Assembly: GCF_000170755.1 (NCBI RefSeq)
Contig: NZ_ABCK01000019.1
Coordinates: forward strand, 1 to 64,000
Origin: Lentisphaera araneosa HTCC2155
Lineage (GTDB): Bacteria > Verrucomicrobiota > Lentisphaeria > Lentisphaerales > Lentisphaeraceae
DNA length: 64,000 bases
Direction of reading: 5' to 3'
The notes under the pieces were generated by a model. It was not told the origin of the DNA and did no database searches. It saw only the letters and a list, made by a program, of their open reading frames with translations. Shown piece after piece: positions 5,545-33,914 of this stretch. Positions within the stretch are counted from its first letter, which is position 1. Each line of letters begins with the position of its first letter. A program made the translations under genes and the position numbers.

Positions 5545-5567
5545 TTATAACCTCCTACAAGTAATTT

Positions 5568-9049: not shown

Positions 9050-9050
9050 C

Positions 9051-10942: not shown

Positions 10943-10943
10943 T

Positions 10944-12209: not shown

Positions 12210-12229
12210 ACTAAAAAACCTCTTTAATT

Positions 12230-12243: not shown

Positions 12244-12289
12244 GCAACGAGATATTAAAAACAAAGTCTTTTGAGAAAAAAACTCATAT

Positions 12290-16298: not shown

Positions 16299-17696
16299 AT
16301 GATTCAATTTAAGTACAATGAACTGCAACAAATTAAAACCAATTTTGCTCGAGTACTCAGCAAGAGTAGTAACAAATTTCTCAGTCAGGTTTGTGTCGAA
16401 ATTTTTGCTAAGGGCTTTCAACTCACGGCAACTAATCTGAGTGAAACGCTTGTGTACCGTTCTAAAGAACAGGGGGGTACGCCGAGTGAATTTCTCATTA
16501 GCCCCGAGACACTCAAAAGAATCGTTGCGGGCATGAAACGTGGCGACTCAGTGGTGCTTCGTTATGAAGAAGAAAAACTTCAAGTGAAATTCTCTAATGG
16601 GATGAGTTTAAGCTATCTCACGATTGATTCAGTCAATTACCCCGAAACATTAAGTGAACTCAAATCAACTGAGGGCTTAGATGCAAGTGATTTAATTGTT
16701 AATTACCGTCGTGCATACAACACAGCATCGACTGATCCGGCTAAAGATGTGCTCAATAGCATTTTCTTTGACTCGGAGGCACATAAGCTTGTGGCTACTG
16801 ATGGTCGGCGCTTATTAAATATTAAAACTGAATTACAAGTTAAGCAAGATACCCTCATTCCTCTAACGAAGGTGTTGAAAGTCTCTAAGATTTTCGAAGA
16901 GGAGAGTTTAATCAAAGTGGATCATAAAACGATTCAGATTGCGAACTCATCCTGGTTGTATCAGTGTCAGCAAGTTGAGGGGGGGTATCCAAACTGGCGA
17001 ACGGTCGTTCCCGAGAGCTACGAATCGACAATTGACTTAAGTGGCTGCGAATTGGCTTTCTTTTGCGACACTATTCGTCAGCTTCAGTCTGATAAAGGTG
17101 AGCATAGTCTACATTGGCATGACAATAAATTAATCTTTGCGGTGAACGATGAAAGTGGTCAACGCGCCGCAAGTATTGTTGGTGCTCAAAGTAATGACTC
17201 ACCCAAGTCTTTTGCAGTCGATCCAAACTTCTTATTAGATGCATTAATTGCAGCTCATGGAGACGTCCAAATTCATCTTACCGATGCTAGTTCTCCGATC
17301 TGTATAAGTTCATCCAATACCCAAAGTGTAATCATGCCGAAGCGTGGATCCGACTTCAAAGTTATTAAGGCGCACATTCAAGAAAAGTATGGCGCGCCAA
17401 AAGCTAAAGAAACTTCAACAAAAACAATTCAACAAAAGGAAAATCCCATTATGAATGAAAACACAGAAGTAAGTGCTATTGAAGAGATTAATCAAACGAT
17501 TGAACATCTCCTAGAAATCCAGGCTGAGGCTAAGTCCAAGGCTGATGAAGCGCACAAGTTGATCCGTGACTCTCAAGCCGGATTAAAATCATTGGCGCGC
17601 CAGCTCAAAGCCTATGAGAAAGATACTCTAAAGAAACTCAAGGAGTATCAGCAAACTCAGGTCCTGATTAGTAAACTGCAAAAAGTAGCCGCTTAG
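16299..17696 (+). CDS. dnaN: DNA polymerase III beta (sliding clamp)-like protein with coiled-coil tail
   Basis: 465 aa. Residues about 1-375 follow the beta-clamp pattern: LVATDGRRLL near 168-177 (chromosomal DnaN has FVATDGHRLA-like text), YPNWRTVVPESYE near 231-243, and an ending SVIMPKRGS in place of the usual C-terminal VMPMRL. A clamp tethers polymerases and repair enzymes to DNA. About 85 extra residues follow, rich in Glu, Lys and Ala and predicted coiled coil (about 384-465). An internal ATG at 17451 has AAAGG 13 bases upstream and could yield the tail alone. It opens the mobile-element-like gene set with recombination genes, so it is probably an element-encoded clamp paralogue rather than the housekeeping copy. 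Confidence 0.8.
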   Translation: MIQFKYNELQQIKTNFARVLSKSSNKFLSQVCVEIFAKGFQLTATNLSETLVYRSKEQGGTPSEFLISPETLKRIVAGMKRGDSVVLRYEEEKLQVKFSNGMSLSYLTIDSVNYPETLSELKSTEGLDASDLIVNYRRAYNTASTDPAKDVLNSIFFDSEAHKLVATDGRRLLNIKTELQVKQDTLIPLTKVLKVSKIFEEESLIKVDHKTIQIANSSWLYQCQQVEGGYPNWRTVVPESYESTIDLSGCELAFFCDTIRQLQSDKGEHSLHWHDNKLIFAVNDESGQRAASIVGAQSNDSPKSFAVDPNFLLDALIAAHGDVQIHLTDASSPICISSSNTQSVIMPKRGSDFKVIKAHIQEKYGAPKAKETSTKTIQQKENPIMNENTEVSAIEEINQTIEHLLEIQAEAKSKADEAHKLIRDSQAGLKSLARQLKAYEKDTLKKLKEYQQTQVLISKLQKVAA

Positions 17697-17732
17697 GTAT
17701 TTGCCAAAGCATTCAATTAATCAGTATCAACT

Positions 17733-17770
17733 AAGCCGGTAGGATCATCACGATCCTATCGGCTTTTTAT
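17733..17770 (+). terminator. Rho-independent terminator after the clamp gene
   Basis: A GC-rich hairpin with arms containing TAGGATC and GATCCTA, flanked by AAGCCG and CGGCTT, is followed by TTTAT. It lies 37 bp after the clamp stop. The next gene begins only 20 bp downstream, so read-through must occur or a promoter lies within the hairpin region. Confidence 0.85.
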
Positions 17771-17790
17771 TTAAAAAAGGAAAAATCATT

Positions 17791-18270
17791 ATGTTAAAGA
17801 TCAATATCAGTTTTAGTAAAAAGGTCCCAGGCCAAGAACAATATAGCTCTAACTCGTTTTATGGCAGTCTTGAAAAAGACATCCCTGAAAACCTAAGTAA
17901 TCATGAAGTTCAACAAGCCTTTCGTGATGCTTATGAATTACTTGAAAATACGGTTGAACAGGAAATTGCGCATTATGCTAATAAGCAAAATATCCCGCTT
18001 AAACACCCTGTAGCTCCACAAGTTAACTCAACACTAGCGACACAAAATGCAAAATCAGGGCGTCAGTACTCAGGAGTCCAAAATACCCCGTCACAAATAT
18101 CTCAAAAGCAAGCAACGTTTTTAAATCGTCTTGGTGCCGAGCGTGGATTAAGTCAAGAACAAGTCGATGCTATGGCCTTGAATCAATTCGGTGTCGAATC
18201 CATTTGGAAGATCTCTAAGAAGCAGGCGTCACAGCTCATTGAACAGCTACAGAATCAGAGGGCTGCTTAA
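17791..18270 (+). CDS. Unknown 159-aa protein with a C-terminal small helical domain
   Basis: Not recognised with certainty. The N-terminal half (MLKINISFSKKVPGQEQYSS) is beta-like, the middle is a glutamine- and serine-rich linker, and residues about 103-157 (ISQKQATFLNRLGAERGLSQ ... WKISKKQASQLIEQL) form a three-helix module of the kind found at the ends of many phage and plasmid recombination proteins. AAAAAGGAAAA precedes the ATG. The stop TAA overlaps the ATG of the nuclease gene (18270). Coupling to a RecB-like exonuclease suggests a role in element recombination or single-strand DNA handling, which is inference. Confidence 0.8.
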   Translation: MLKINISFSKKVPGQEQYSSNSFYGSLEKDIPENLSNHEVQQAFRDAYELLENTVEQEIAHYANKQNIPLKHPVAPQVNSTLATQNAKSGRQYSGVQNTPSQISQKQATFLNRLGAERGLSQEQVDAMALNQFGVESIWKISKKQASQLIEQLQNQRAA

Positions 18271-19103
18271 TGAATACTGAACTTAACTTTGCTGAATTGC
18301 GCAAGGATCCCCACTGGAGTTTTTCCGCACTGAATTCGATCCTCAATATTTGTTCGATGCAGTATGCTTTTGGTCGTATCTATAAGGAGATACCAGAGTT
18401 CGTGCCGATGAATTTAGTGTTCGGCAAAGCTTTTCATCGAGGAGCAAGTTATCTCTATAATCTGCATAAAGATATGCAAGAACCCGAGGAGAATGAGTTG
18501 AATGACTTTTTCGCTCACGCTCTTCAGACTGAGGTTAATGACTCGCGCTTTGATGTGCCTCTTGCCGAAGGTAAGGAAATCGATGATTATATATTGAAGG
18601 GTCAGGAGATGCTCCAGGCCTTAGCCGAGAATCTTGATCCCGATGATGAAGTTGTCGATACTGATGTTCCCTTTAGGGTCAATCTGCCTGGTTCAAAACC
18701 ACTCATCGGTGAGTTTGATGCCGTGGTGGAGAACAAGGGACGTATTATTATTGTGGACTTTAAGACTTCCGCCTCCAAATGGCCTGCGATTAAATGCCAT
18801 AAAGACCTTCAAGCGACGGCTTACTTGTACGCTTTGCGCCAGGGGATAGATAGTCGTGAATCGCTCTTTAGATACGACGTTATCACCAAGGCTAAGACTC
18901 CGACTGTAACACGCTACATGACCAATCGTACTCAAACGGATTTTAATCGTTTCATCCAGTTGGTGCATATGGCAGATAGAGTCGTTGAGCAAGAGATGTA
19001 CTACCCACATGAAACTAGCTTTGCTTGTGGCGGATGTCAGTACTCTGGAGCTTGTACTTCTTGGCAGACTTGTCAGGCGGGAAAAGCTCAGCAAGTGGCA
19101 TGA
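18270..19103 (+). CDS. RecB/Cas4-like PD-(D/E)XK exonuclease with Fe-S cysteines
   Basis: 277 aa. The RecB-type nuclease core is visible: H56 in FGKAFHRG, D150 in GEFDAVVE, D163 and K165 in IIIVDFKTSAS, then QATAYLYALRQ near 181-191 (motif QxxxY). A lone C28 and a C-terminal CGGCQYSGAC cluster (C253, C256, C262) have the spacing of the 4Fe-4S staple seen in AddB and Cas4 nucleases. Such enzymes process DNA ends. Its start overlaps the previous gene's stop by one base, so translation is coupled. The neighbourhood (clamp, DUF2787, RadC-like) is typical of recombination sets on integrative elements. Confidence 0.88.
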   Translation: MNTELNFAELRKDPHWSFSALNSILNICSMQYAFGRIYKEIPEFVPMNLVFGKAFHRGASYLYNLHKDMQEPEENELNDFFAHALQTEVNDSRFDVPLAEGKEIDDYILKGQEMLQALAENLDPDDEVVDTDVPFRVNLPGSKPLIGEFDAVVENKGRIIIVDFKTSASKWPAIKCHKDLQATAYLYALRQGIDSRESLFRYDVITKAKTPTVTRYMTNRTQTDFNRFIQLVHMADRVVEQEMYYPHETSFACGGCQYSGACTSWQTCQAGKAQQVA

Positions 19104-19615: not shown

Positions 19616-19981
19616 ATGCGTATCACTGCCAATACCCTAAATAAGCAAGTTCTTCAAATGGAGCTGCCATTTCAAAGTTTTATCAATGGTGCGCTTACAA
19701 GCCACCTCGTGAATGAAGAAATAGATCCTATTGAATTGCTTTATAATGAACTACCCGCAACTGAATGCTTACAAGTCATGGAAGATGATCAACTCTGCTA
19801 TGAGTTGGAAGCGGCTTGCTTAAGAGCCAGTAGCTATCAATGCAAGGATGAAAAATTAGATTATTTAACGCCTATAAAAATTAAGCTTAATCAGCAAGAT
19901 GTGGCTCAGTGTAAACAATTGCTTTTTCCCTTACATGGCATGCGCCTAATACATTCTCCTGATAAACCGAGGAGTGCCTAA
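19616..19981 (+). CDS. Unknown 121-aa protein upstream of the RadC-like gene
   Basis: No family recognised. Predicted soluble, with an acidic centre and four cysteines scattered without a zinc-finger spacing. A strong site TGGAGGTG lies 5 bases before the ATG. Its stop TAA shares one base with the ATG of the RadC-like gene (19981), so the two are translationally coupled. A role in the element's DNA metabolism is only suggested by position. Confidence 0.75.
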   Translation: MRITANTLNKQVLQMELPFQSFINGALTSHLVNEEIDPIELLYNELPATECLQVMEDDQLCYELEAACLRASSYQCKDEKLDYLTPIKIKLNQQDVAQCKQLLFPLHGMRLIHSPDKPRSA

Positions 19982-20490
19982 TGCAGCCAGAACTGATTAA
20001 GTTCCCCGTAAAGGAACACTGGGCTTATGAGGTAAAAGCTGTTCGTCAGCCTGTACCAGGTCTAAAACCTGTTCAGGCGAATCAACCAGAGGCCGTGTTT
20101 GATTTTCTCAAAACGATTGGGGTCGCGGATGAAGCGCAAGAAGTTTTTATCGTCCTTGTTTTAAATACTAAGAACTTCATTACTGGCTACTGCGAAGTGA
20201 GTCGTGGCTTAGTTGACCGCACGCACGTAGCCTGTCGAGAGGTGTTTCGTCCAGCTTTGATTAACGGCGCGAGTAAAATAATCGTGGTTCATAATCACCC
20301 CTCGGGAGTCCTTACTCCATCTCATCAGGATCGAACAATAACTAATAACTTACAAGAGGCTGGCGAACTGCTCGGCGTTGAGGTCATTGACCACCTGATT
20401 GTGGGCTATTGCTTAAACAAACAAAAACATCATTTCCTGAGTTTTCGGCAGGAAGGATTCATGTCAATATCAAAACAACAAGCCGCCTAA
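19981..20490 (+). CDS. RadC-family JAB/MPN domain protein
   Basis: 169 aa and mostly the JAMM core: E54 in EAQEVFIVLVL, VHNHPSGVLTPSHQD with H104, H106, S114 (of the S/T-x-x-D) and D117, then VEVIDHLIVG. It lacks the N-terminal helix-hairpin-helix region of chromosomal RadC, as is usual for copies on integrative elements and plasmids. The metal-binding residues are present. Biological role is uncertain; despite the name, the family is not established as a repair protein. It overlaps the preceding gene by one base and is followed 11 bp later by the next. Confidence 0.9.
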   Translation: MQPELIKFPVKEHWAYEVKAVRQPVPGLKPVQANQPEAVFDFLKTIGVADEAQEVFIVLVLNTKNFITGYCEVSRGLVDRTHVACREVFRPALINGASKIIVVHNHPSGVLTPSHQDRTITNNLQEAGELLGVEVIDHLIVGYCLNKQKHHFLSFRQEGFMSISKQQAA

Positions 20491-21749: not shown

Positions 21750-21935
21750 ATGAAAAAGAATTGCGTATGTCCTATTTGCTCAAGGCGTTTACACGCTATG
21801 GAAAGAGTTAAGGCTCAATCTAGTTTGAGAAATTCAGGCTTAAAATCTAGGATTGATTCTTTCCTCACATTACTTAGTGGCGCTGATGAAAATAAATGGA
21901 TCTGCGTCCATTGCCGAAAGGTATTTACTCTATAA
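21750..21935 (+). CDS. Small zinc-ribbon-like protein
   Basis: 61 aa with CPIC near the N-terminus and CVHC near the C-terminus, plus a basic middle, so a small zinc-binding protein is likely. GGAGGGGATGCT precedes the ATG. It follows the previous gene by 11 bp and has the same two-CxxC architecture, so it probably belongs to the same operon. Function unknown. Confidence 0.65.
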   Translation: MKKNCVCPICSRRLHAMERVKAQSSLRNSGLKSRIDSFLTLLSGADENKWICVHCRKVFTL

Positions 21936-22236
21936 AAGATAAGTCAGATAGAAAACTAAAAGACTCTTTGACTTTAAAGGTCATGAGTTATATTGAACGA
22001 CATAATTTTAGATTCTATCTAATGATTTTCGTTCCGGAAGAAATCGACCAAATTTATACACACGGACGAAAACAAGAGATAGGTCACGCCCCAATTTAGG
22101 GCGTGACTTGTTTTGCGTGTACTCGTGTGTGGGTTCTTGGTCGAACCTCTTCTGGGCTACATAAGAAGCAAGCCACGCTCTTTTTCTTTGGGATGAGGGG
22201 CTGGTTTTTAATAAAAAAACCAGAAGGAAAGTTAAA
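21936..22236 (+). other. Gap between the zinc-ribbon gene and the lipoprotein gene
   Basis: No convincing gene. It contains a terminator at 22083-22114, and directly upstream of the lipoprotein ribosome site a second A/T-rich hairpin with arms CTGGTTTTT (22201-22209) and AAAAACCAG (22215-22223). The latter may be a leader hairpin. Confidence 0.6.
22083..22114 (+). terminator. Rho-independent terminator
   Basis: Perfect 9-bp arms GTCACGCCC and GGGCGTGAC flank a CAATTTA loop and are followed by TTGTTTT. It lies about 150 bp after the small zinc-ribbon gene and probably ends that transcript. Confidence 0.85.
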
Positions 22237-23100
22237 ATGAATACAAATAACATAATAAAACACTCGTTGAAAGCAGTCATGCTCTTTGGACTATTGGTTT
22301 CATTGCTGACAAGTTGTGGTGATTCTAATGTAACATTGGTCAAGGATGGAACAATGAATAGCTATCCTCAAGGGACTATAGGTAATGTTCTAGATGCTAA
22401 TTTTGATTCTACAGATTGGTCGAGTGAAGAAAAGGGGGGGAAGACTTTTGTGAACTTCAGCGGTGAGATAAGTGAAGGTCTTCGCGCTAAAGCTCTGGCA
22501 AAAGATTACCCTAAAGGGGTTGAAACGCATAAGAATATCCGAGAAAGTATTGTACGAAGCAACATGTCTCAGAAATTCATGGAAGAGCTAAAGATTCTTC
22601 AAGCCAATCGACCTCAAGTAGAGGGGATATCTCAAACTAAAAAGCTAGAAGCTGAACTTAATATTTTAAGATCTAAGCTAAAAGAGGTATCAGAGAAGCT
22701 ATACTTTGTAAGAACAAATGAACTCCCTCAATCATTGAACGGAAATAACCCTAAATACGAAGCGCAAAAAGCTGTGTATGATAAAAAGCTTAAACCTATG
22801 GAGCTTGAAGTTCAAAGAATGAAAGAGAAGAGTAGTGAATTAAATCAGAAGTTGTATGATTTAAGAAGAGCGATGCAAAAAGAAGGTCAAAATCTCGGGA
22901 AAGAATTCCGTTTAGCACAAGAAGTTTTAGTGAAAAACCTCTTTGCAGAATACCTAGAAACAGGTTTTTATAAAGAGGGAGAAATAATTTCATTAAAATG
23001 GGTTGTTCATCCAAACGATGAAAGTTTTGAGTTAATTGAATTCTCATCCGATACAGTAGCAACAAGTAGTTCAATTTTCAGAGTGGCTTTCTCTGACTAA
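22237..23100 (+). CDS. Putative lipoprotein of a mobile element
   Basis: 287 aa. An N-terminal hydrophobic stretch ends in LLVSLLTSC, a lipobox with C27 as the likely lipidated residue. Next comes VKDGTMNSYPQGTIGNVLDA, a segment shared by small lipoproteins on plasmids and integrative elements, then a central coiled coil (about 115-215, LKILQANRPQ ... QKLYDLRRAM) and a C-terminal beta domain with VVHPNDESFELIEF. The coil appears inserted between two halves of the domain. AGAAGGAAAG precedes the ATG. It is followed by a terminator and convergent to the Rep-helicase gene. Function unknown; possible envelope role in transfer or exclusion (speculative). Confidence 0.75.
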   Translation: MNTNNIIKHSLKAVMLFGLLVSLLTSCGDSNVTLVKDGTMNSYPQGTIGNVLDANFDSTDWSSEEKGGKTFVNFSGEISEGLRAKALAKDYPKGVETHKNIRESIVRSNMSQKFMEELKILQANRPQVEGISQTKKLEAELNILRSKLKEVSEKLYFVRTNELPQSLNGNNPKYEAQKAVYDKKLKPMELEVQRMKEKSSELNQKLYDLRRAMQKEGQNLGKEFRLAQEVLVKNLFAEYLETGFYKEGEIISLKWVVHPNDESFELIEFSSDTVATSSSIFRVAFSD

Positions 23101-23115
23101 TTGACTAAAAAAGGA

Positions 23116-23143
23116 AGGCAATCATCATTGGTTGTCTTTTTTT
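23116..23143 (+). terminator. Terminator after the lipoprotein gene
   Basis: AGGCAATCA and TGGTTGTCT form a 9-bp hairpin (with G-T pairs) followed by seven T residues, 15 bp after the lipoprotein stop. Confidence 0.8.
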
Positions 23144-23265
23144 AGTTTTTGATATAAAGCAAAACTCTTTCTATAAAACCCTTGATCTCGCGACATTTTC
23201 ATGATGCTCCTAGTTCTCATTTCAAGCTGTCAGCACATCTCTATAGGCAAGGGCATAATGCCCTG

Positions 23266-25245
23266 CTAAGCATAAAAAATTTCAACTTCAGGAGCTACAT
23301 GAAAATCGTGTTTTGTAATTGAGCGATTGACTGTTAATTGTGAAAGACGTCTTACACGACCAATAGCTGTGTAGGTAAGGCCATTATATTTCATTTCGGT
23401 AGCTAACTCAATATGGACAGGTCCGTCAAATTCCATACCTTGACTACGAGTGATGGTAATTGCATGAGCAAGGGCAATTGGGAATTGTTGAACTTGAGCT
23501 TCATTATTGATATTGTCTTTATAATAATAACGTTTAACTGCAACATCGTCACCTCTGTCCAAAGAAACAATGATTGTTGAAGATGAGACTTTTTTAACAA
23601 TACCTGTATCTCCATTAACGTATTTATATTGACCTTCTCTATTTTTTACATTAGCTGTGATCAATACCTTGGAACCAATTTTTAAATTAATGATTCGGTC
23701 AACCTCTTGTTCCTCGTAATTGAACTTACCATTATTCTCAATAGCCTTAAGCGTGATGGTGGAGCCTTTAAGTATTTTTTCTTTAGCTTCGTTAATTCGT
23801 TTCACTTGCTTACGTGTAGCACAGAGGCAGATGGCATTATCAGGAGGCGTTGAACTTTCTCGCACTTTCTCGTTAAAGAACTTGATGGGGTCAAGGCTGA
23901 ACCCTGGGCCAACTTGCATCACTTTTAATGTTTTCTCTCGAAAGCATTTAAGTAAATGTTTTTCGTAAGGGCAAATTTGTCGATAGTTTTGGATTAGTTC
24001 AATTCTTTTAAATCTAGCTGAAATCCAAGAAGCACTATGGAAAGGGAAAAGAGATCCGTAATGCTTATAATATTCTCTATATTCTGTAGGGCTAAGAATT
24101 GCGGAACCCTGAGCCATATCACCTACCATAATGATCTGAACACCACCAAAAGGTTTTTGTGGATCTTGTAGTTGTCTAAGCCTTCTGTCAACGTGTAACA
24201 GGGTGTCTGGTCTTATACGACTTGATTCATCAAAAATTAGTATTTCGATTGAAGAAAGGAATCGTTCTTGCTCTACTGATAACTTAGGGAGGACTTGATC
24301 AGGTTTTAGTATTTCCAATGGTAATGCAAAGGCGCTGTGGATTGTGATTCCACCAACTAGTCGTGCTGCTGACGCTGACGGAGAAACAATTAATGTTTTT
24401 CTCTTAGTAAGAGCTATCGCTTCTTTGATGATACGAGATTTACCTGTTCCTCCAGGGCCGTCAATATTAACGCTAATACCTTCAAGGATCATAGACAAAG
24501 CTATCAGTTGTTCTTTGTTAAATCGTTCTCCGAACATAAGAGATAAGGCTTCAGTTGAAGGTTCGTGGATCTCAGTCTTCTTGGGAAGAGAGGACGTGCT
24601 CCAGCAATTGTTATTTTTATCAAAACAGTCTGAGGTTCTTGATTTCGCAAGGTAGAGGGATTGCCTAATCGCGGAGTTTAGGAAGAAGAGGAAATCTTTT
24701 GATGGATAGCTTAAGCCGTTTTCTTTATCTTCCTTGGTGAGGTAGTTGTATTGGTCTAGGCGTATTCCGTTTTCTTCATTATGACTTCTGTAGCTAACTA
24801 AGCCATTATTGTAGAACTTAATTCCTTTTTTCTTGTCTTCTTCTGTTACGGGATCAAAGAAATTATTCCAGATTCTTTTAGCAGTAAGTACAGCTGATTT
24901 CTTATTGTTTACTTTCTGTCCGTCTAGGAGAATGAAGAGGTGATAGTGGCCGTGATCACTAGAGTCTTTTTCTCGCTTCCACGCATAGATGATTTCGCCG
25001 TAGGGGCTGAAGGTACTCATTTTCTTTGAATATGCTTTTAGTTCTTTTTTGTAGTATTGGCGAATCATGTATTGTCTGAAATCTTTTAGGAATTGGTTTA
25101 ATAAACCTTGTTCATTATAGAGAATTTCGTTGGCAGGGAACTTGAGGTCAAGACGAATAAAGATGTTGCGCTTGCGACTTAGTGCTTTGATAAAGAGTTG
25201 GAAAATAACATTTCCAAATATAAATAATTTATGGTTTTTTTTCAT
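23266..25245 (-). CDS. YagK/YfjJ (inovirus Gp2-like) HUH domain fused to a PIF1/RecD-like helicase
   Basis: 659 aa. Residues about 25-205 resemble the YagK/YfjJ C-terminal domain: IRLDLKFP (motif 1 region), YAWKREKDSSDHGHYHLFIL with H100-Y-H102 as the HUH pair, and the candidate catalytic tyrosines Y168 (YLTK) and Y198 (YLAK), the latter matching the family YLAK position. Residues about 230-659 are an SF1B helicase: Walker A GPGGTGKS at 263-270, FDESSR with D339 and E340, VGDMAQ near 374-379, and a UvrD_C_2-type ALAHAITITRSQGMEFDG near the C-terminus. Nicking plus unwinding in one chain suits rolling-circle replication or transposition (inference). An AT-rich leader with two hairpins precedes it. 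Confidence 0.8.
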   Translation of the reverse strand: MKKNHKLFIFGNVIFQLFIKALSRKRNIFIRLDLKFPANEILYNEQGLLNQFLKDFRQYMIRQYYKKELKAYSKKMSTFSPYGEIIYAWKREKDSSDHGHYHLFILLDGQKVNNKKSAVLTAKRIWNNFFDPVTEEDKKKGIKFYNNGLVSYRSHNEENGIRLDQYNYLTKEDKENGLSYPSKDFLFFLNSAIRQSLYLAKSRTSDCFDKNNNCWSTSSLPKKTEIHEPSTEALSLMFGERFNKEQLIALSMILEGISVNIDGPGGTGKSRIIKEAIALTKRKTLIVSPSASAARLVGGITIHSAFALPLEILKPDQVLPKLSVEQERFLSSIEILIFDESSRIRPDTLLHVDRRLRQLQDPQKPFGGVQIIMVGDMAQGSAILSPTEYREYYKHYGSLFPFHSASWISARFKRIELIQNYRQICPYEKHLLKCFREKTLKVMQVGPGFSLDPIKFFNEKVRESSTPPDNAICLCATRKQVKRINEAKEKILKGSTITLKAIENNGKFNYEEQEVDRIINLKIGSKVLITANVKNREGQYKYVNGDTGIVKKVSSSTIIVSLDRGDDVAVKRYYYKDNINNEAQVQQFPIALAHAITITRSQGMEFDGPVHIELATEMKYNGLTYTAIGRVRRLSQLTVNRSITKHDFHVAPEVEIFYA

Positions 25246-25274
25246 GGGATTATCCTATAAGATATAAAATAAAA

Positions 25275-25310
25275 AAGCCTTAGAGAAATACTGGATTTCA
25301 TCTAAGGCTT
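25275..25310. repeat. Perfect 10-bp inverted repeat upstream of the Rep-helicase gene
   Basis: AAGCCTTAGA (25275-25284) and TCTAAGGCTT (25301-25310) form a stem with a 16-base loop; T-rich and A-rich flanks would let it act as a bidirectional terminator. It could equally be part of the double-strand origin recognised by the HUH domain. Confidence 0.6.
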
Positions 25311-25316
25311 ATAGAT

Positions 25317-25349
25317 CCTTCATAATCATTTTGGGATGATTGTTGAAGG
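25317..25349. repeat. Imperfect inverted repeat next to the first hairpin
   Basis: CCTTCATAATCAT pairs with ATGATTGTTGAAGG through CCTTCA/TGAAGG and AATCAT/ATGATT, with a small bulge and a TTTGGG loop. It lies 7 bp from the first hairpin. Two hairpins in tandem upstream of a Rep-like gene are unusual for a simple leader. Confidence 0.5.
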
Positions 25350-25958
25350 TTATTAATATCTTATTGTTATGTGTTTATATGTGAGTGAATTTATGTCTTT
25401 ATATTTATTGTATTATACTTACCAAATAGTCATCCAAGTCAGAATCCCTAGTGTGTCGGAATAAATTATGATGTTGAGATGATTATGGTGAGTAAGTTAG
25501 TTACATATCATGGTTGTGAGGGTGTCTAAATTTCAAAATATTGAGCTCAAAACTGAGAGGAATATTTAGCATTTCAGTATCTCTACATTATATTGTATAT
25601 ATTATCTGAAAATATTTATTTAAAATAGTGGGGCTGGTGAATTTTAGAGTGGTTCATTCTCTGAAAGGTTTAAGTGTTGATTGTATAGTGCGTATCAAGC
25701 TATAGGCTTAAAAACTAAAAAATAGGCAATGTTTTAAAAAGACATAATTAAAACTTTTGGCTACTCACAATAGTCTGCCTCTTCATATCCTGTAGATCTT
25801 TCATAACTAGTATGAATGAATAGTACTAAAACAAGTGTAATTTATTGTTTATAAGTTAGTTAGGTGTTTTGTTGTTCTTTGTTTAAAGGTCTTGGCTATT
25901 GTCATAAGTAGTTCTTTTCTAATTCTTTATTTGACTTCACAAAATTAGATTTTCGAGA

Positions 25959-27113
25959 CTACCTAAAGCCCTTGCATATAGCTTCAGTCTCATCCCATGG
26001 GATCTCTACTTTGACTGCCAATCGACCAAATTGATCTTTTGTAGTTACAAATATAATATTAGATTCATTATACGGTTTGAACTCAAACTCCGCTTTACAT
26101 AAAAAATCATCTAAAGTTTCGTTGTCATTCATTTGGATCGGGTTCCTAAATATACCATTTGGAATGTTAAGTTTTTCTAAAATAACGTGTATGTGCGTTT
26201 GATAAGAATCGTATATAATTACTTTTTTATATTTGATATCAATAGTGCCTTGACCATAAAAAGATAAGTATGATTTATGGTGTTGGGTACTATAATGCGT
26301 GTTTGGATTGATTATTTTAGTAAATGCAAAAATGATGTCATCATTCGATGAAGTATTCAAGTCAATAGCAGGGGTATTGTTTATGACTAAAACTCCTCGT
26401 GTGATAAGGTTTTTCAAATAAAATATTTTACCACTATAAGCCGTGTCAGTTTTTATACATGAATCAATGAATGGGTTTGGAGCACTATATACTTGCATCT
26501 TAGAATTCTTTAATGATGATAAAAAACCGTTATTTCTGACATCGTCAATGGAAATCATTTTACATGAGAAGTTCTGTGTCATGTATTGTGCTATTTCTAA
26601 TTCTTTGGCGAATTGTTTTTCATAAAGTGATTTTATGTTTTTATTTAAATCAATTTTGTGGTGACACTTTAGTGTTGTGTATGCCCTTATTATAACTTCA
26701 TAAAGAGATGCTGTTTTTTGTTGATCTAAACTTCCATGTTTTAATTTCGAGTAACTAATTATTTTTTTGTTACTAATTTTAGTTACATCACTAAGAGATA
26801 TATCACCTAGATATTTTTTTAAAATACATGGAATCTTTTGATAGTATTCACGGGTGTGTTTTTTTAAGAAATCAACTATTACTTTAGGGACTCTCTGGTC
26901 ATCTTTTATAGGGATTAAATGTTTTTTCAGACAGGGATCTGTGGCGAGTATATCGTATATTTTACTTTTTATAGTTGTCCTATTCTTGAATGCCAAATTA
27001 TAAAACGTTGTCCATGAAATACCTAAATCACGGGCACGTTGGTGTAAGCTCTTATCTTCACTTACCTTACTTTGAATTATTTCTCTGGCTTCATCGGTTA
27101 CAAAATATTCCAT
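25959..27113 (-). CDS. Unknown 384-aa protein with an N-terminal HTH-like segment
   Basis: Start chosen at the ATG at 27113 (MEYFVTDEAREIIQSKVSED), preceded by GGAG at 7 bases; the ATG at 27125 overlaps that ribosome site. Residues about 22-60 (HQRARDLGISWTTFYNLAFK) look like a helix-turn-helix, so DNA binding is likely. The rest is unrecognised, mixed alpha/beta, low in glycine, with late motifs IIYDSYQTHIHVILEKL and IIFVTTKDQFGRL. It is divergent from the excisionase-like gene at 27250 and lies upstream of the candidate origin. It might be a regulator or replication accessory of the element (inference). AT content is higher than in its neighbours, which suggests separate acquisition. Confidence 0.7.
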   Translation of the reverse strand: MEYFVTDEAREIIQSKVSEDKSLHQRARDLGISWTTFYNLAFKNRTTIKSKIYDILATDPCLKKHLIPIKDDQRVPKVIVDFLKKHTREYYQKIPCILKKYLGDISLSDVTKISNKKIISYSKLKHGSLDQQKTASLYEVIIRAYTTLKCHHKIDLNKNIKSLYEKQFAKELEIAQYMTQNFSCKMISIDDVRNNGFLSSLKNSKMQVYSAPNPFIDSCIKTDTAYSGKIFYLKNLITRGVLVINNTPAIDLNTSSNDDIIFAFTKIINPNTHYSTQHHKSYLSFYGQGTIDIKYKKVIIYDSYQTHIHVILEKLNIPNGIFRNPIQMNDNETLDDFLCKAEFEFKPYNESNIIFVTTKDQFGRLAVKVEIPWDETEAICKGFR

Positions 27114-27249
27114 TATTAACTCCATTTTTCTAATTCATTCTATAGTTCGTTATTAAATAATCTAACGAACCAAAATGAATATGCAAATACTTTGTCTTAA
27201 GAGTTTTATGATATTATTTATTATTAATATTAAATAATAAAGGAACTAT

Positions 27250-27576
27250 ATGGATACTTCAAATATTAGTGATGACAGTCTTACCGCTATCGCGTTGATT
27301 TTAAAAGATCAAATAAAGGGGGTAAGAGCTGATGTCATCAAAAATGCCCTAGAACATTATGAACCTAACGGGCCACCAAGTTCTATAAAATCATCTCCTA
27401 ATCTGATAACGGTAAAAGAAGCAGCAAAAAGACTGAGTGTCAGTGAACGTTTTATCTATACGTTGATCGATCAAGGTTCTCTTCGCCGCATTAAGATCAA
27501 TCGTGCATGTCGGTTATTAGAGTCCGATATCTCCTTACTGATTGAACAGAGATTAATTCAAGGAGGTGATGAATAA
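27250..27576 (+). CDS. Excisionase-like MerR/HTH_17 DNA-binding protein
   Basis: 108 aa. Residues about 56-105 read LITVKEAAKRLSVSERFIYT, LIDQGSLRRIKINRACRLLE, then SDISLLIEQ, the winged-helix pattern of the HTH_17/excisionase family. The N-terminal 50 residues are an unassigned helical region. AAAGGAAC lies 6 bases before the ATG. It heads a run of four genes that ends with a RepA-like ATPase. Probable role: transcriptional control or directionality factor for the element. Confidence 0.85.
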   Translation: MDTSNISDDSLTAIALILKDQIKGVRADVIKNALEHYEPNGPPSSIKSSPNLITVKEAAKRLSVSERFIYTLIDQGSLRRIKINRACRLLESDISLLIEQRLIQGGDE

Positions 27577-27642
27577 GTCAACAAAATAATGAAAAAACTA
27601 ATCAAATAGAACCAACAAGAAATTTAATTATAGGAGCTAAAT

Positions 27643-28236
27643 ATGATACGAAGTGACAAGGGTGAGATTAGTCTCGTCTCCTCTCCATCGCCACATCATC
27701 CATGGCAAAACGCTATTATCGCTAGAGGTGGATTTAAACAAGATAAGGCAGCTATAAAGCAAAAGATCAAAATAGGGAAAGTCAACCAAGCTGCTATGTC
27801 ATCTATTTCTGACAAGAATAGATTTCGTAAACTGTTTCCGCGTGCTGAACCACATCCATTTTATTATCGAATTGGTCCATTTCGAATAATACGTAAAAAT
27901 TATGACGCTCAAGCTCCTGATAGGTGGGGAAATTCAATAAATTGCCAGCTTCTTCCAGGCACCGTTATCGTTGAAACACCTTATGGCTTAGAAGCGTTGG
28001 TGACACCCCCATGTATATCACCATTAATCTTTCTATTTATGCTTGAATATGAAATTGTCTCGCCTGTCGATGCAATTAACAGCATGGCTAAAGACCTTGG
28101 TTTTTCTGATGACCTTAAATCTGTATTACGCCTACCTCAGAATAGCTGGTTTCGCAGTGTTCAACCTAAGCACCATCAAATTGGTGTAGCGCTAAATATA
28201 GAATCTAACCCTATAACTACAGGAGTAGTTTTATGA
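27643..28236 (+). CDS. Unknown 197-aa element protein
   Basis: No family recognised. It has a basic N-terminal half (FKQDKAAIKQKIKIGKVNQA), then aromatic-rich EPHPFYYRIGPFRIIRKNYD and a hydrophobic ISPLIFLFMLEY stretch that is too short to be called a membrane helix with confidence. TAGGAGC precedes the ATG. The stop overlaps the next start (ATGA). Position between the excisionase-like gene and the RepA-like ATPase suggests a part in replication or copy control. Confidence 0.72.
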   Translation: MIRSDKGEISLVSSPSPHHPWQNAIIARGGFKQDKAAIKQKIKIGKVNQAAMSSISDKNRFRKLFPRAEPHPFYYRIGPFRIIRKNYDAQAPDRWGNSINCQLLPGTVIVETPYGLEALVTPPCISPLIFLFMLEYEIVSPVDAINSMAKDLGFSDDLKSVLRLPQNSWFRSVQPKHHQIGVALNIESNPITTGVVL

Positions 28237-28874
28237 AAAAGAAAAAAATAATGAAGAAATACGAATTATTAAAATCAAAATATGAGGATTCTAAAGCGAA
28301 GTTAGATAGTGATTTCTCTATAGATAATAAACCCAATATGCTGCTTAATGCCCTGCCGTCCACACCTTGTCACTCCTGGTCTACTCGGGCATATACTTTT
28401 TATGATGAAGACGGACGTTTATGCTACTACGTTAACGAAGATATAAATGGTAGCAGTGTTGTTCAGACTCCAGTTGCGGTACATAGCTCAGGAAACCTAA
28501 ACTTTGAGCATAAAAATGCCTCCACGTTAGAAACTAATCGTTTGCTAAATTCACCAGAAATAGTTAAAAATCTTGAAGCTGAACTCATAGTTTCTCCAGT
28601 TCTGTTCTACGCAGATTATATGCAATGGAACATAAGGTCTACTAAACGTACAGACGTAGTTTACAGTAGTTGGTGGGGAGATGTGGAGACCGTTGATGCG
28701 TTAGATATCTCCCCACTGAGTGGGCGTAGAGTTCGTCTCGTGTTACATACTGGTAGCGAACTGGATGATGACAATGCCTACACGGCCATTGCCAAACTAT
28801 ATCTACAAATCAAAGATCATGCTCAAGTGAGCTTTTCACACATTGATCATGTTAATATGCAGGAGGTGATCTGA
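28233..28874 (+). CDS. Unknown 213-aa element protein
   Basis: No family recognised. It opens with a lysine-rich segment (MKKKKIMKKYELLKSKYEDS), and has a central beta-like region with TRAYTFYDEDGRLCYYVNED and WSTRAYTF. Later DVVYSSWWGDVETVDALDIS and LVLHTGSELDDDNAYTAIAK are visible. It overlaps the preceding stop by 4 bp and the following ATG by one base, so the three genes are translated as a unit. A cofactor of the RepA-like ATPase is the simplest guess. Confidence 0.72.
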   Translation: MKKKKIMKKYELLKSKYEDSKAKLDSDFSIDNKPNMLLNALPSTPCHSWSTRAYTFYDEDGRLCYYVNEDINGSSVVQTPVAVHSSGNLNFEHKNASTLETNRLLNSPEIVKNLEAELIVSPVLFYADYMQWNIRSTKRTDVVYSSWWGDVETVDALDISPLSGRRVRLVLHTGSELDDDNAYTAIAKLYLQIKDHAQVSFSHIDHVNMQEVI

Positions 28875-29968
28875 TGGATTACGACGAATTTAAAAAACGC
28901 TGTGAAAAATTGGGTTTAAATCCTGATAAATTAGAATCCTTTAGTGCTAATAAAGGATCTATGGAAGCTAATAAACTAAGGAGTTCTGATGAGATAGTAA
29001 ATCCTGGGATTGCCATCGAAGATCTGGCTTTGGCCATAGGTATTATGATGGTGATAGCACCCCCTAAAATCGGTAAATCTTCTTGGCTACATAGTCTTTT
29101 AGAGAAGATGTCAAAGGGCGAAAAATTAAATAGACGTGAGCTTAAAAAACTTCGTTGCCTTTTAGTTGATAGTGAATCGGGGCAATATGGTTTGTCTCGA
29201 AAAGGACTCAGTGAGAAGCAAAGTGATGAATTCCACATTCTCAGTGTCGCCGATATGCTTGCTGAATCAGTTGGCAAAAGAGTCGATATACTTAATCTTG
29301 TTTTCGATCAAATTGAGGAGTATGTCATCAAGTATCAAATTGACGTAGTCGCATTAGATGCAGTGTATTCCTTCATTAATGAGAATTCAAAAAAAGAGGT
29401 TCAGGCGTTACTGAAGCGAGTCATTAAACTCAAGTCCATGGGCAAGCTTGTTGTTTTAGTTCACCATACACGAAAAGATGTAAAGCAATCTACTAACCTC
29501 TTCGCCAATATGGCCGGACACAGTGATCTACAGCGCAACTTTAACCTCGGTGTACTACTCAAGAAGACCGATCAGCACATCGTTGATGAAAGCGGTAAAC
29601 AGCGACCTGTAGTTGAGTTCATTTATGAGTGTCGTGATTTCGATACTCCCGATTCGGACTTTATGTACTTGGGGTCAGACCGTGAGTTCCATATCTGTAG
29701 CCTTGAGACGCTTGTGGATGATCGCTATGCGGAGTTGCCCGCGGGAGATATCCCACTGGCTAAATTCATCACCACTAACTTACCTGCAGTTGCCTCTGAA
29801 GCTCTGGAGACCACGGTGGTGATCGACATGATGGATGACGATGAGAGTATCGGTTGGACGCGCGAAACGCTCAAGAAGAAATTGCCTGAATGGGAAGCCC
29901 ATGGCTACCTCCGAACCATCGGCAAGTCACCAAAGCGCTACTACATCGGTAAGAAACTCGAAGAATAA
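28874..29968 (+). CDS. RepA-like hexameric helicase/RecA-fold ATPase (AAA_25 type)
   Basis: 364 aa. Walker A APPKIGKS at 62-69, a conserved CLLVDSESGQYGL segment near 95-107, Walker B-like DVVALDAVYSF at 157-167 and KLVVLVHHTRKD near 192-203 match plasmid RepA and AAA_25 proteins, RecA-fold replicative helicases or ATPases. The C-terminal about 100 residues look like a winged-helix tail (ETLKKKLPEWEAHGYLRTIG) before KSPKRYYIGKK. AGGAGGTGAT precedes the ATG. It likely unwinds or loads at the element's origin. It is followed by tandem AATCAACCC repeats. Confidence 0.82.
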   Translation: MDYDEFKKRCEKLGLNPDKLESFSANKGSMEANKLRSSDEIVNPGIAIEDLALAIGIMMVIAPPKIGKSSWLHSLLEKMSKGEKLNRRELKKLRCLLVDSESGQYGLSRKGLSEKQSDEFHILSVADMLAESVGKRVDILNLVFDQIEEYVIKYQIDVVALDAVYSFINENSKKEVQALLKRVIKLKSMGKLVVLVHHTRKDVKQSTNLFANMAGHSDLQRNFNLGVLLKKTDQHIVDESGKQRPVVEFIYECRDFDTPDSDFMYLGSDREFHICSLETLVDDRYAELPAGDIPLAKFITTNLPAVASEALETTVVIDMMDDDESIGWTRETLKKKLPEWEAHGYLRTIGKSPKRYYIGKKLEE

Positions 29969-30002
29969 TCAACCCAATCAACCCAATCAACCCAATCAAC
30001 CC
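29967..30002. repeat. Four tandem copies of a 9-bp repeat
   Basis: AATCAACCC is repeated four times without interruption, starting within the stop codon of the RepA-like gene. It is followed by an inverted repeat, CCCAGC and GCTGGG, before the RavA-like gene. Iteron-like or slippage-prone; four 9-bp units are short for a replication iteron set. Confidence 0.8.
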
Positions 30003-30044
30003 AGCACCTAGCTGGGATGGTTAAATTCATTAAGGATTCATATC

Positions 30045-31574
30045 ATGAAAAATAGAATAAAACAACTTATTAAGCACTTACAAAATGGCCTGTTAGAAAG
30101 AGAAGAAATTATTGCTCTGATTCTACTAGGAGCAATAACCCGTTCTCATATTTTTATGCTTGGCGTTCCTGGTACCGCTAAAAGCCTTGGTGCACGTCGT
30201 GCCAGTTTTGCTTTTAAAGATGTTAATTATTTTGAAACATTGATGCACCGCTTTAGTACACCGGAGGAGGTCTTTGGGCCGATTTCACTTAATCAATTGA
30301 AGCAGGATAAGTATATACGCATGATTGTGGGGTATCTTCCAGATGCGGAAATTGCCTTCCTAGATGAAATTTGGAAAAGTTCGCCATCCGTACTCAATAC
30401 GTTGTTGACGGTCACAAATGAACGTCTTTTTCGTAATGGAAATAAGAGTATTAAAGTCCCGCTAATCTCTATGGTAACGGCTTCAAATGAAACACCTGAG
30501 CCAGGACAAGGGCTTGAAGCCCTCTATGATCGCATGCTGATCAGGCTATCAGTCTCACCTCTCCGTAGAAAGAATAATTTTGAAAAACTTTTACAGGGTT
30601 CAGTTGTAGAGGTTGATACCCGTATACCCGAAGAGTTGGCGATTTCAGTTGAGGAAATTGACGCTTGGCAAGCACCGATTCAAAGTGTGAAGATCTCCAA
30701 TGAGACCTGGGACGTAATTCACTTGATTCGACATGAGATTCAACAGTTGCCCGACGAACAGGAAGTTGAAGTCTCTGATCGTCGTTGGAAGAGTGCTGCC
30801 TCGTTACTCAAAGCTTCAGCTTTCTTCTGTGACCGCAGTGCCACTAATCATGCTGATGTGCTTTTACTCCGTCACTGTCTTTGGAGTACAGAGGAAAATT
30901 ATAAGCCGATACAGAAGATTGTTGAAAAAGCTGTTAGAGACTGCGGAATCAACATTGATATAGACCTTTCTTTAATAGATGTAACTATGAATGATCTGGA
31001 GTCGGAAATTAATGATGAACTCATTATGGATGATGATATTTATATGACTGAAATCATCGACGATCAAGAGTATTTTAAGAGTAGTATAGAGACTATAGAT
31101 GGGCCAGGAATTGAAGTGTTAATTGATGCTAAATATATCAAAAAGGATGAGGAGTTTAATCCCTGTGATCTCAATGGTAATATTTACGAAGATTTAGTTT
31201 GCAACTTCCACAAACAACGTAGTTGTAAGCTCAGCGGTGGCTACACTGACGAGTATGATGATTACTATGATGTCGATGCGGAATTCACGGCTCAGACCAT
31301 TATTGAAAAGGGGACTCGACGCACTGACTTTGATATCGGTTACGTTCAGTCGTTGTGTGATCAGGTTGGAGATGTGAAAGTCCGTCTCGGTGAGAACCTA
31401 GAATACCTTCAAAGTAAAATTGTCGTCGCTAAGGACGAGCTTAATACGCCCTTTGTCCCTGAACAGGTGTGTAAGGTTGCGATCAAGGGAATGCACGATC
31501 AGAAGGATGGCCTAATGTTGCGCATTAAAGAATGTGACTGCCTTATCAGCATGTGCGAGGAGTCACTCTTATGA
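30045..31574 (+). CDS. ravA: RavA-like MoxR AAA+ ATPase
   Basis: 509 aa, near the usual RavA length of about 500. Walker A GVPGTAKS at 40-47, ETLMHRFSTPEEVFGPISL (65-83), typical of RavA, Walker B IAFLDEIWK with D107 and E108, then TVTNERLFRNG and TASNETPEPGQGLEALYDRM with the arginine-finger region. The second half is a RavA-type extension with an acidic stretch near 330-360. MoxR ATPases remodel partner complexes with a VWA protein. Its stop overlaps the start of the VWA gene (ATGA). AAGGATT precedes the ATG. A copy in this mobile-looking setting is unusual. Confidence 0.88.
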   Translation: MKNRIKQLIKHLQNGLLEREEIIALILLGAITRSHIFMLGVPGTAKSLGARRASFAFKDVNYFETLMHRFSTPEEVFGPISLNQLKQDKYIRMIVGYLPDAEIAFLDEIWKSSPSVLNTLLTVTNERLFRNGNKSIKVPLISMVTASNETPEPGQGLEALYDRMLIRLSVSPLRRKNNFEKLLQGSVVEVDTRIPEELAISVEEIDAWQAPIQSVKISNETWDVIHLIRHEIQQLPDEQEVEVSDRRWKSAASLLKASAFFCDRSATNHADVLLLRHCLWSTEENYKPIQKIVEKAVRDCGINIDIDLSLIDVTMNDLESEINDELIMDDDIYMTEIIDDQEYFKSSIETIDGPGIEVLIDAKYIKKDEEFNPCDLNGNIYEDLVCNFHKQRSCKLSGGYTDEYDDYYDVDAEFTAQTIIEKGTRRTDFDIGYVQSLCDQVGDVKVRLGENLEYLQSKIVVAKDELNTPFVPEQVCKVAIKGMHDQKDGLMLRIKECDCLISMCEESLL

Positions 31575-33010
31575 CAGCCACCGAAAATATTGAAGAGTCG
31601 ATTCAGAATGATTACGGGGACTTGCTTGAACGGTTCCCTGCATTAACTCGTGAAGTGAATCGAACCCTTGAAGAGAAGGCTGGAGAATGGGAGCAAACAC
31701 TTGCCGAAGAGAATCCGTTTAGTAGTGACTGGAATACTCTTCAGGCTTCTGAAAAATGGCTTACAGAAGGAAAGTTGGGCAACGATTGTCTGAAGTCTTC
31801 TGTAAATCAGTTTCATGAGTTTCGAGCTAAATGCCAACTTCCTGATCTGAAGAGTTACTGGAATCAGGAGTTGTCTCAGATAAACGATCAACCTGGTAAT
31901 GTTAATGTCCTGCCTCAGTTTCTTATTTCGCAGTGGCATAAGAGCCTTAGAGACCTGCAATCCACTTGGAAGCAGGAACGGCTTGATAACTTGCAGAATG
32001 AAACTCAGCAAGAAATGAATGACTGGATGGATAATCTCAACGACATCGCCGATGAACTGGAGAAGCTGGATCTCGATCCGGAAGATGTTTTTGATTTTGC
32101 CTCTGGAGCTGGTGCTGGTGGAGATGGCCCAAGCGAACTCAGTATACAAAACTTAGAGACTCTGAAGAAATGGCTGGGAACCCTGAAGAAGGACCCCGGT
32201 ATTAAAGACCTTTGTAAGCTGCTTGGTAAACTCAAACAAGCTAAGTTAAATAAAATCAAACGTAGCCGAACCACGTCATCATCAGTGTCTAGTTCGAATT
32301 CATGTGAAGAAATATCCGGCATTAAATTCTCCAAAGAACTGGAGCATCTACTTCCATCTGAACTCGCGTTGCTCACCGATCCTGAGACTGAAATTATCTT
32401 CGATCTCAAATATGCTGAGTCAAGACTCATGGGCTTTGATATGAGTGGTATACAGACGGTCAGCAAGAAAGAAGAAATCGAAATGCCTGACGAGGAACAA
32501 GGACCGATGATCATTGCTGTTGATACAAGCGGTTCAATGTATGGAGCACCAGAAACTACAGCAAAAGCAATTACTTTATACATGGCTAAAACGTCTATGA
32601 AAGAGAATCGCAATTGTTATGTGATCGAGTTTTCAACTAAGATTAAGACCATCGACCTTGCGGGATCTAATAGATTGTCAGCTTTAATGAAGTTCCTGGA
32701 GATGTCGTTTAATGGTGGGACTGATGTCGAACCTGCCATTGAGCATGGCACTGAAGTGATGAACCAGGAAGGGTATAGAAATGCAGATATGTTGGTGGTA
32801 TCGGATTTTATTTTAAATGACCTTGAACCACCCTTGGTAGACAAGATTCAACAGGCTAAAGCTAAAAATAATAGTTTCTACTCGCTCTGTATCGGTGACC
32901 ACTTTCATAGTCATAAGAATCGGGAATACTTTGATAGGAAGTGGGTCTACAACCCAGATGGATCAAGTGTGACAGAGTTACTCAAGTTTGAGAACGGTAA
33001 ACTTTCGTGA
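31571..33010 (+). CDS. viaA: ViaA-like VWA domain protein
   Basis: 479 aa from the ATG at 31571, which overlaps the RavA stop and follows GAGGAG; an in-frame GTG 18 bases upstream lies in the ribosome site. The N-terminal about 230 residues are helical, followed by a serine-rich linker (RSRTTSSSVSSSNS) and a von Willebrand A domain with the MIDAS motif DTSGSM at 318-323, a later threonine in FNGGTDV and DMLVVSDFIL. Length and order match ViaA, the metal-binding partner of RavA. Together they act as an ATP-driven chaperone; in E. coli the pair is linked to respiratory complexes and aminoglycoside sensitivity (family knowledge). Confidence 0.88.
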   Translation: MTATENIEESIQNDYGDLLERFPALTREVNRTLEEKAGEWEQTLAEENPFSSDWNTLQASEKWLTEGKLGNDCLKSSVNQFHEFRAKCQLPDLKSYWNQELSQINDQPGNVNVLPQFLISQWHKSLRDLQSTWKQERLDNLQNETQQEMNDWMDNLNDIADELEKLDLDPEDVFDFASGAGAGGDGPSELSIQNLETLKKWLGTLKKDPGIKDLCKLLGKLKQAKLNKIKRSRTTSSSVSSSNSCEEISGIKFSKELEHLLPSELALLTDPETEIIFDLKYAESRLMGFDMSGIQTVSKKEEIEMPDEEQGPMIIAVDTSGSMYGAPETTAKAITLYMAKTSMKENRNCYVIEFSTKIKTIDLAGSNRLSALMKFLEMSFNGGTDVEPAIEHGTEVMNQEGYRNADMLVVSDFILNDLEPPLVDKIQQAKAKNNSFYSLCIGDHFHSHKNREYFDRKWVYNPDGSSVTELLKFENGKLS

Positions 33011-33161
33011 TTAAATGGGAGTGGTATTGTTTAGATTTAAACGCTAAGTAGTTCTTATTTTGCTTCAAATTAGCCTCATTTTTCGATGTGGATTCTCAAG
33101 TCTTAATTTGCCATTTAAGAAGTTATTTAGCTGAAATCTACGCTTGCTCTCCTGGTTGTGT

Positions 33162-33181
33162 ATCATAAATTTTATTATGAT
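33162..33181. promoter_or_regulatory. Inverted repeat upstream of the resolvase gene
   Basis: ATCATAA and TTATGAT flank ATTTTA, 19 bp before the resolvase ATG. Small serine recombinases often bind repeats near their own promoter (res site I or an operator), so this may be the resolvase's own binding site. AT-rich chance is possible. Confidence 0.4.
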
Positions 33182-33200
33182 TTAATAAGGGTGCCTAAAA

Positions 33201-33788
33201 ATGAGAACAGCTATTTATTGTCGAGTTTCAACGAGTGATCAAACGACGGAAAACCAGGTTTATGCAATCGAGAAATATTGTCACTTACGTGATATTCAAA
33301 AAGTTGAATTGTATGAAGATATTGTGTCTGGAGCTCAAGAGAGTAGGGAAGGGCTAGAGCGACTCAGAAATGATATACGAAAGGGTAGGTTTAAGACCTT
33401 AATCGTTTGGAAATTGGATCGTTTAGCTAGGTCGTCGATGCACCTTCTGGAACTACTAAGTTTCTTTCAGAAACACGGTGTGTCATTTGTGTCCGTTACA
33501 GAGAATGTAGACACGGTATCAGCTGCCGGAAAAATGTTAGTGACGTTCCTAGGAGCCATAGCAGAATTTGAGAGGGAACTCATACGCGAACGAGTCCACG
33601 CAGGACTCGAACGCGCTAGGCATAATAAGGTGAAATTGGGCCGTCCTCGTCGAGGTTTTGACCTAAAGAAAGCACTGAGATTACGAGCTGAGGGCATGGG
33701 GTATGACGAGATTGCGAAGTTAGTCGGTGCGTCTAAATCCACCGTATATCGAGGCTTGAAGGTCGTTTCAAAAACCCCTGTAAATTAA
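33201..33788 (+). CDS. Small serine recombinase (resolvase/invertase family)
   Basis: 195 aa, standard for Tn3-type resolvases and DNA invertases. The catalytic serine is S10 in IYCRVSTSDQ; LIVWKLDRLARSSMHLLEL and FLGAIAEFERELIRERVHAG carry the conserved arginines and E helix; the C-terminal HTH is AEGMGYDEIAKLVGASKSTV. It performs site-specific exchange between short sites, resolving multimers or inverting segments. It is the last gene of the mobile-element-like region, with its own upstream inverted repeat. It is too small to be a large serine integrase, so it probably does not integrate the whole element. Confidence 0.93.
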   Translation: MRTAIYCRVSTSDQTTENQVYAIEKYCHLRDIQKVELYEDIVSGAQESREGLERLRNDIRKGRFKTLIVWKLDRLARSSMHLLELLSFFQKHGVSFVSVTENVDTVSAAGKMLVTFLGAIAEFERELIRERVHAGLERARHNKVKLGRPRRGFDLKKALRLRAEGMGYDEIAKLVGASKSTVYRGLKVVSKTPVN

Positions 33789-33914
33789 GCATGAGCTGTG
33801 CGGGCCAAAAACCCCGTTTCCAAAGTGTTCCAAAAAAACGCTTCATAATCATTGTTGTAAGAAACGTGCGAGCTCAGTATTTTATACAAATACTATAGGA
33901 ACTCAATTCATTGA

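Follow-up and report, generated by a model that had tools for sequence, protein, structure and literature searches.

Title: A YagK/YfjJ-type HUH domain joined to a PIF1 helicase in Lentisphaera araneosa looks like a self-contained replication starter of an integrating mobile element

Can a single bacterial polypeptide contain both an HUH nuclease of the YagK/YfjJ type and a PIF1 helicase and, if so, what does it do for the DNA in which its gene lies? The known prokaryotic rolling-circle proteins of the Y2 type are all devoid of a helicase (PMC6213432), and no Rep-helicase fusion is encoded by any isolated single-stranded DNA virus of bacteria or archaea (PMC6668415). The question is raised by a gene found within the first 64,000 nucleotides of contig NZ_ABCK01000019.1 of Lentisphaera araneosa HTCC2155, a stretch hereafter called the window (Table 1). 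A first-pass annotation had described the product as an SF1B helicase of the PIF1 group preceded in the same chain by a YagK/YfjJ-type HUH domain, a description borne out by Pfam matches above the cut-offs, and had proposed that the protein, if real, would drive rolling-circle replication or transposition of the surrounding element.

Table 1. Coordinates of the fused gene, its parts and neighbouring features in the window
Feature	Position	Strand	Basis or remark
Fused HUH-PIF1 gene, 659 aa	23266..25245	-	intact ORF; Pfam PF11726 and PF05970
YagK/YfjJ-type HUH domain, residues 25-213	24607..25173	-	Pfam, conservation, predicted fold
HUH motif H100-Y101-H102, predicted metal ligands	24940..24948	-	invariant in 68 relatives
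Y198-L-A-K201, predicted catalytic tyrosine and lysine	24643..24654	-	Y and K invariant in 68 relatives
Inter-domain linker, residues 214-240	24526..24606	-	stops in the other two frames
PIF1 (SF1B) helicase domain, residues 241-659	23266..24525	-	profiles, motifs; groups with the G003 PIF1 pair
AT-rich intergenic region (713 bp) upstream of the fusion gene; candidate control/origin region	25246..25958	.	hairpin at 25275–25310
388-aa protein	25959..27125	-	no Pfam match, no relatives in fetched loci; between fusion and AlpA-type genes
AlpA/excisionase-type HTH protein	27250..27576	+	HTH_17, TIGR01764; AlpA-type gene recurs beside HUH genes
RepA-like AAA_25 ATPase	28874..29968	+	profile match
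DNA polymerase III beta-clamp homologue	16299..17696	+	same operon beside HUH in relatives
ORF159, weak GemA similarity	17791..18270	+	conserved clamp-operon member
PD-(D/E)XK (Cas4-like) nuclease	18270..19103	+	clamp operon
RadC-like protein	19981..20490	+	RadC listed for I55-type islands too
Serine recombinase (resolvase/invertase type)	33201..33788	+	profile match; possible island recombinase

The reading frame is intact and begins with an ATG preceded by ATAGGATAATCCC, a ribosome-binding site of the AGGA type. That an assembly or sequencing error might have fused two neighbouring genes is suggested by the relatives, in which the two proteins are as a rule encoded separately, and by a locus of the WC36 genome (L021/L022) whose HUH and PIF1 genes share one frame and are separated by a single TAA. 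However, the ~24 codons that lead from the C-terminal HUH motif to the Q-motif of the helicase are open in a single frame, the other two being interrupted by stops, and the junction contains short A runs only, with no long homopolymer; an error of this kind is highly improbable, and the gene genuinely joins two domains of familiar types, within an element of a kind already known.

The assignment of the N-terminal portion relies on the match of residues 25–213 to the Pfam family YagK_YfjJ_C (PF11726), obtained with an E value of 2.9e-7, above the gathering score, and of 1.8e-8 when this portion is searched alone, the 31–35 bits scored comparing with a curated cut-off of 25.8. The HYH and YLAK motifs originally noticed are found as HGHYH at 98–102, which comprises H100 and H102, and as YLAK at 198, whereas of the two tyrosines then proposed, Y168 and Y198, the former had to be rejected, its motif (YLTK at 168) being located in an insertion that, among 11 aligned class members, only the window sequence has. 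In this alignment H100-Y101-H102 and Y198-L-x-K201 are invariant and, when 68 members from several phyla are compared, the only invariant residues are H100, Y101, H102, G109, Y198 and K201, so that the superfamily motif, consisting of the two histidines and the downstream tyrosine, is kept in 68 of 68 sequences. PF11726 and the inovirus-type REP_ORF2-G2P model are each matched by every one of these relatives, and Rep_1 by seven of them. Because they are invariant across the 68 relatives, HYH and Y198 likely constitute the catalytic set; conservation and the Rep-type matches agree, and both fit a one-tyrosine HUH endonuclease having Y198 as its nucleophile.

The three-dimensional structure was modelled with AlphaFold2 for the HUH domain of the window (pLDDT 81.5, pTM 0.80) and for a Nitratidesulfovibrio relative, L067 (pLDDT 94.6, pTM 0.90). 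Compared with the PDB by Foldseek, the former retrieves mostly AAV Rep domains and, lower in the ranking, parvovirus NS1, the Helitron structure 7lcc and ISHp608 TnpA, and the latter has NS1 and AAV Rep on top amid Csy proteins, HPPK and others. The structural comparison, proposed at the outset as a check, thus yielded mainly HUH nucleases, but with weak PDB matches for both models (best E 2e-3, TM ~0.3) that include non-HUH folds. Matches to a viral library reach an E value of 9e-5 and include named replication initiators of the inovirus and microvirus types. An HUH-type topology of the domain is predicted by these models.

The remaining part of the chain is a PIF1 helicase of superfamily SF1B. 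Residues 252–426 match the PIF1 family of Pfam (E 4e-19; PF05970, 69.5 bits vs 25.9), a Dda-like helicase of the PHROG collection spans residues 211–658 (E 7e-51), and the Pif1 chains of the PDB, which are solved bacterial structures, align over residues 258–646 (E 4e-39). The helicase motifs are present, namely Walker A (GGTGKS, 265), Walker B (IFDESS, 337), VGDMAQ (374), QNYRQ (419), TRSQG (within 596–606) and GRVRR (within 625–633). In the PIF1 tree the helicases linked to HUH genes are split from 17 chromosomal PIF1s (SH-aLRT 95), and the label “HUH-linked” requires 4 changes compared to 14.9 in shuffles. The window domain groups with a pair of PIF1s from the genome G003 (SH-aLRT 91), one of which adjoins an HUH gene, the other being found on a 3-kb contig.

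How does this single chain relate to the genes of its relatives? The initial opinion that an HUH protein of this type is usually encoded alone is valid outside the class but not within it, since in Lentisphaeria the HUH gene, usually a separate gene, often has a PIF1 gene at its side. Of the 53 loci read out, 22 have such a neighbour, although the choice of loci was partly biased towards PIF1, some having been picked after a PIF1 had been seen; in 15 of these 22 cases the two genes overlap or lie within 60 nt of each other, and in 16 the order is HUH → PIF1. Because of this frequent adjacency, the fused gene seems to be derived from a module of two genes. Within the HUH tree, the association with PIF1 has been gained or lost several times, so that the partnership appears to be favoured but optional. 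Of two nearly identical HUH genes, that of locus L025 is accompanied by PIF1 and that of L160 (G083:C1:2502000-2513000) is not, the latter element carrying a gene for a D5/DUF5906-type primase-helicase in its place.

HUH matches were detected by a class-wide profile search in 58 of 198 genomes and, among the ~125 matches, both domains were found in one frame in the window only, the species being represented by one genome; the survey for further YagK-PIF1 fusions recommended by the first-pass annotation therefore yielded none in the class. Likewise, no HUH ORF of 80 named loci, many of which are from other phyla, is fused to PIF1, the full-length protein has no confirmed relative among viral contigs, and phage and plasmid records gave helicase-sized matches only, none covering 80% of the query. 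No description of a pairing of YagK-type HUH and PIF1 was found in the literature searched. Several candidates were discarded: the “phage” MT838644, which has a gene for a PIF1-TPR protein but none for HUH, appears to be a bacterial fragment that was mislabelled, and the long frames of G116:C15 (481 aa), G144 and an IMG/VR hit are YagK domains with extensions and not helicase fusions.

In what kind of element do these genes reside? HUH loci are repeatedly accompanied by a tyrosine integrase, an AlpA-type HTH protein and an AAA_25 ATPase. The WC36 genome contains several near-identical copies of an HUH element at different places; one of them has a complete tRNA-Met at its integrase end, two others are next to tRNA genes as well, for another tRNA-Met and for tRNA-Ala, and in one a tRNA is present as a partial copy. 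In the window an AlpA-type regulator and the YfjJ/Gp2-like domain occur together, the combination expected of CP4-57/I55-like elements; no tyrosine integrase was found on the contig and no tRNA in the window, and hence no integrase at a tRNA or tmRNA. The contig starting at position 1 of the window, the left end of the element may be missing, and the DNA similarity to genomes of the same genus is too low to define an empty site by synteny. The operon at 16299–19103, encoding the beta-clamp, ORF159 and the PD-(D/E)XK nuclease, is kept beside HUH genes at ~10 loci of the class, and a gene pair for a MoxR-type AAA ATPase and a VWA-domain protein (30045–33010) adjoins the island genes. Defence genes are found at 366–13774, where HsdR, HsdM and an HsdS-like gene form a type I restriction-modification system, and a HamA/HamB (Hachiman) pair is located at 5568–9166.

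Taken together, the protein is in our view, with a probability of roughly 0.6, the replication initiator of a CP4-57/I55-like integrative element, with the YagK/YfjJ-type HUH domain and its PIF1 partner in one chain. Transposition of the surrounding element by the fusion protein, on the other hand, finds no support: the relatives belong to elements with tyrosine integrases, three of which are beside tRNA genes, the gene is present in a single copy in its genome, and Y198 is the single invariant motif tyrosine, compared to two in the RepHel of Helitrons (PMC6213432). A Helitron-like or IS91-like rolling-circle transposase capable of moving the surrounding DNA by itself is thus hardly credible, even if the domains are arranged in the RepHel order and a Helitron structure is found among the weak Foldseek matches as well as in the sequence search with the helicase.

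It is also unlikely that the gene is decaying or has been repurposed, the island being immobile and the protein having a regulatory or defensive function or none at all. Both domains are on long branches in their respective trees, the insertion around Y168 is found in the window only, the contig has no tyrosine integrase, and the region contains the type I restriction-modification and HamAB genes, yet the frame of 659 codons is intact and every catalytic and helicase motif has been retained.

Two candidates can be named for the origin at which the replication initiator would act: the 713 bp that precede the fusion gene and, in the relatives, a palindrome conserved ahead of the HUH gene. The leader (25246–25360, minus strand) folds far better than shuffled sequences (z −4.9), and a terminator-like hairpin with a U-run, at 25275–25310, ends ~20 nt before the ATG, pointing to attenuation or to an origin in the form of a DNA hairpin; searched against Rfam, positions 21900–34000 gave nothing at the gathering threshold. 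In ~15 non-redundant Lentisphaeria loci (the set comprising L029, L030, L151-L162, L166 and L169) an imperfect palindrome of ~20 nt, AGGTAAAT(T)GGTAATACCT, is found upstream of the HUH gene, 20 of its 31 hits in 1.6 Mb falling within 200 nt upstream of an HUH start; it is a candidate operator or nick site, represented in the window only by the degenerate AGGTTATTAATATCT at 25347. In loci L157, L158 and L159 the HUH gene is preceded by a GC-rich palindrome whose loop is conserved and whose stem differences seem to compensate each other (CCCCCTGTGA/TCACAGGGGG vs CCCCCCGGTGA/TCACCGGGGGG).

HUH Reps remain on the 5′ end of the strand that they have nicked and PIF1 helicases travel 5′ to 3′, so that a helicase of the PIF1 type would follow the displaced strand, like those of TraI and Helitron RepHel; filamentous phages, by contrast, borrow the 3′-to-5′ helicases of their host. 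We infer nicking, origin, helicase polarity and replication as a circle: with the element in circular form, the HUH domain would bind the origin, perhaps near its own gene, cut one strand through Y198 and remain attached to the 5′ end, the nick would leave a 3′-OH for the polymerase, and the PIF1 domain, 5′-to-3′ by family, would move on the displaced strand and open the duplex, and the element would therefore need no host Rep, UvrD or PcrA helicase. Rolling-circle replication of the excised element is preferred because the relatives are found in integrase-bearing elements, three of them beside tRNA genes.

An HUH nuclease and an SF1B helicase in one chain also represent the plan of TraI, and the helicase part scores, albeit weakly, with TraA/RecD2 models, so that one might think of the relaxase-helicase of an integrative and mobilizable element, nicking at oriT and unwinding the DNA for conjugative transfer. 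This alternative is decidedly unlikely: the models hit by the HUH part are of Rep type (PF11726, G2P, Rep_1), with no relaxase family among its Pfam matches, the window genes scanned include neither a coupling protein nor any gene for type IV secretion, and the YfjJ of E. coli is located in a cryptic prophage.

Returning to the replication initiator, the fusion would equip the element with a helicase of its own and looks like a self-contained copying starter for an integrating mobile element, a reading based on the fact that the relatives in the class often carry nickase and helicase as neighbouring genes on integrating elements. A more far-reaching proposal, to which we assign somewhat less than even odds, is that this is a bacterial counterpart of RepHel, in which a one-tyrosine HUH domain and its own PIF1 copy an integrative element without host helicases, the split operons being ancestral; if true, the combination of Rep and PIF1 would have arisen separately in prokaryotes. 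The fusion and the class-wide gene pairs would show that initiators can team up with 5′-to-3′ helicases in prokaryotes too, and the fusion would offer a small protein for studying the coupling of nicking and unwinding and hints at what the YagK/YfjJ proteins, which are widespread but little studied, may do in phage satellites and genomic islands.

How does the fusion compare with known systems? With the YagK/YfjJ family (PF11726; YfjJ of CP4-57, “inovirus Gp2-like”) it shares the HUH family, the catalytic residues, the AlpA-type and ATPase neighbours and the integrative element context, but the other 67 aligned members have no helicase in the chain. In CP4-57 of E. coli intA, alpA, yfjI and yfjJ lie in line and, unlike the window, the genes shown include yfjI, which encodes a DUF3987 protein, but none for PIF1. 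The YagK-PIF1 pairs of Lentisphaeria (e.g., WC36, CP085689) encode both of these proteins, as a rule in this order and with AlpA-type and AAA_25 genes nearby, yet as two genes instead of one and often with a tyrosine integrase. Pseudomonas I55-type islands have in common IntY, AlpA, RadC, YqaJ, a Gp2-like protein and defence genes, and one of them was moved by a jumbo phage (PMC12595487). The window resembles these I55/VPI-1-type islands of Pseudomonas and Vibrio in its AlpA, RadC, YqaJ-type nuclease, Gp2-like and defence genes, whereas the islands differ in having a tyrosine integrase at tmRNA and a separate Gp2-like gene and in belonging to a different phylum (PMC12595487). The Reps of pCRESS plasmids and CRESS-DNA viruses are nuclease-helicase chains for rolling-circle replication, as proposed here, but their helicase belongs to SF3 and is unrelated to PIF1 (PMC6668415). 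Helitron RepHel has the same succession of Rep-type HUH nuclease and PIF1-family helicase, but is eukaryotic and has two catalytic tyrosines (PMC6213432) instead of one, the window helicase being nearest to the bacterial PIF1s of G003. Finally, the relaxase-helicases of the TraI/TraA type also unite HUH nuclease and SF1B helicase in one chain, but theirs are a relaxase-type HUH domain and a RecD-like helicase. The best reading is that the fusion would work like TraI or Helitron RepHel while belonging to neither.
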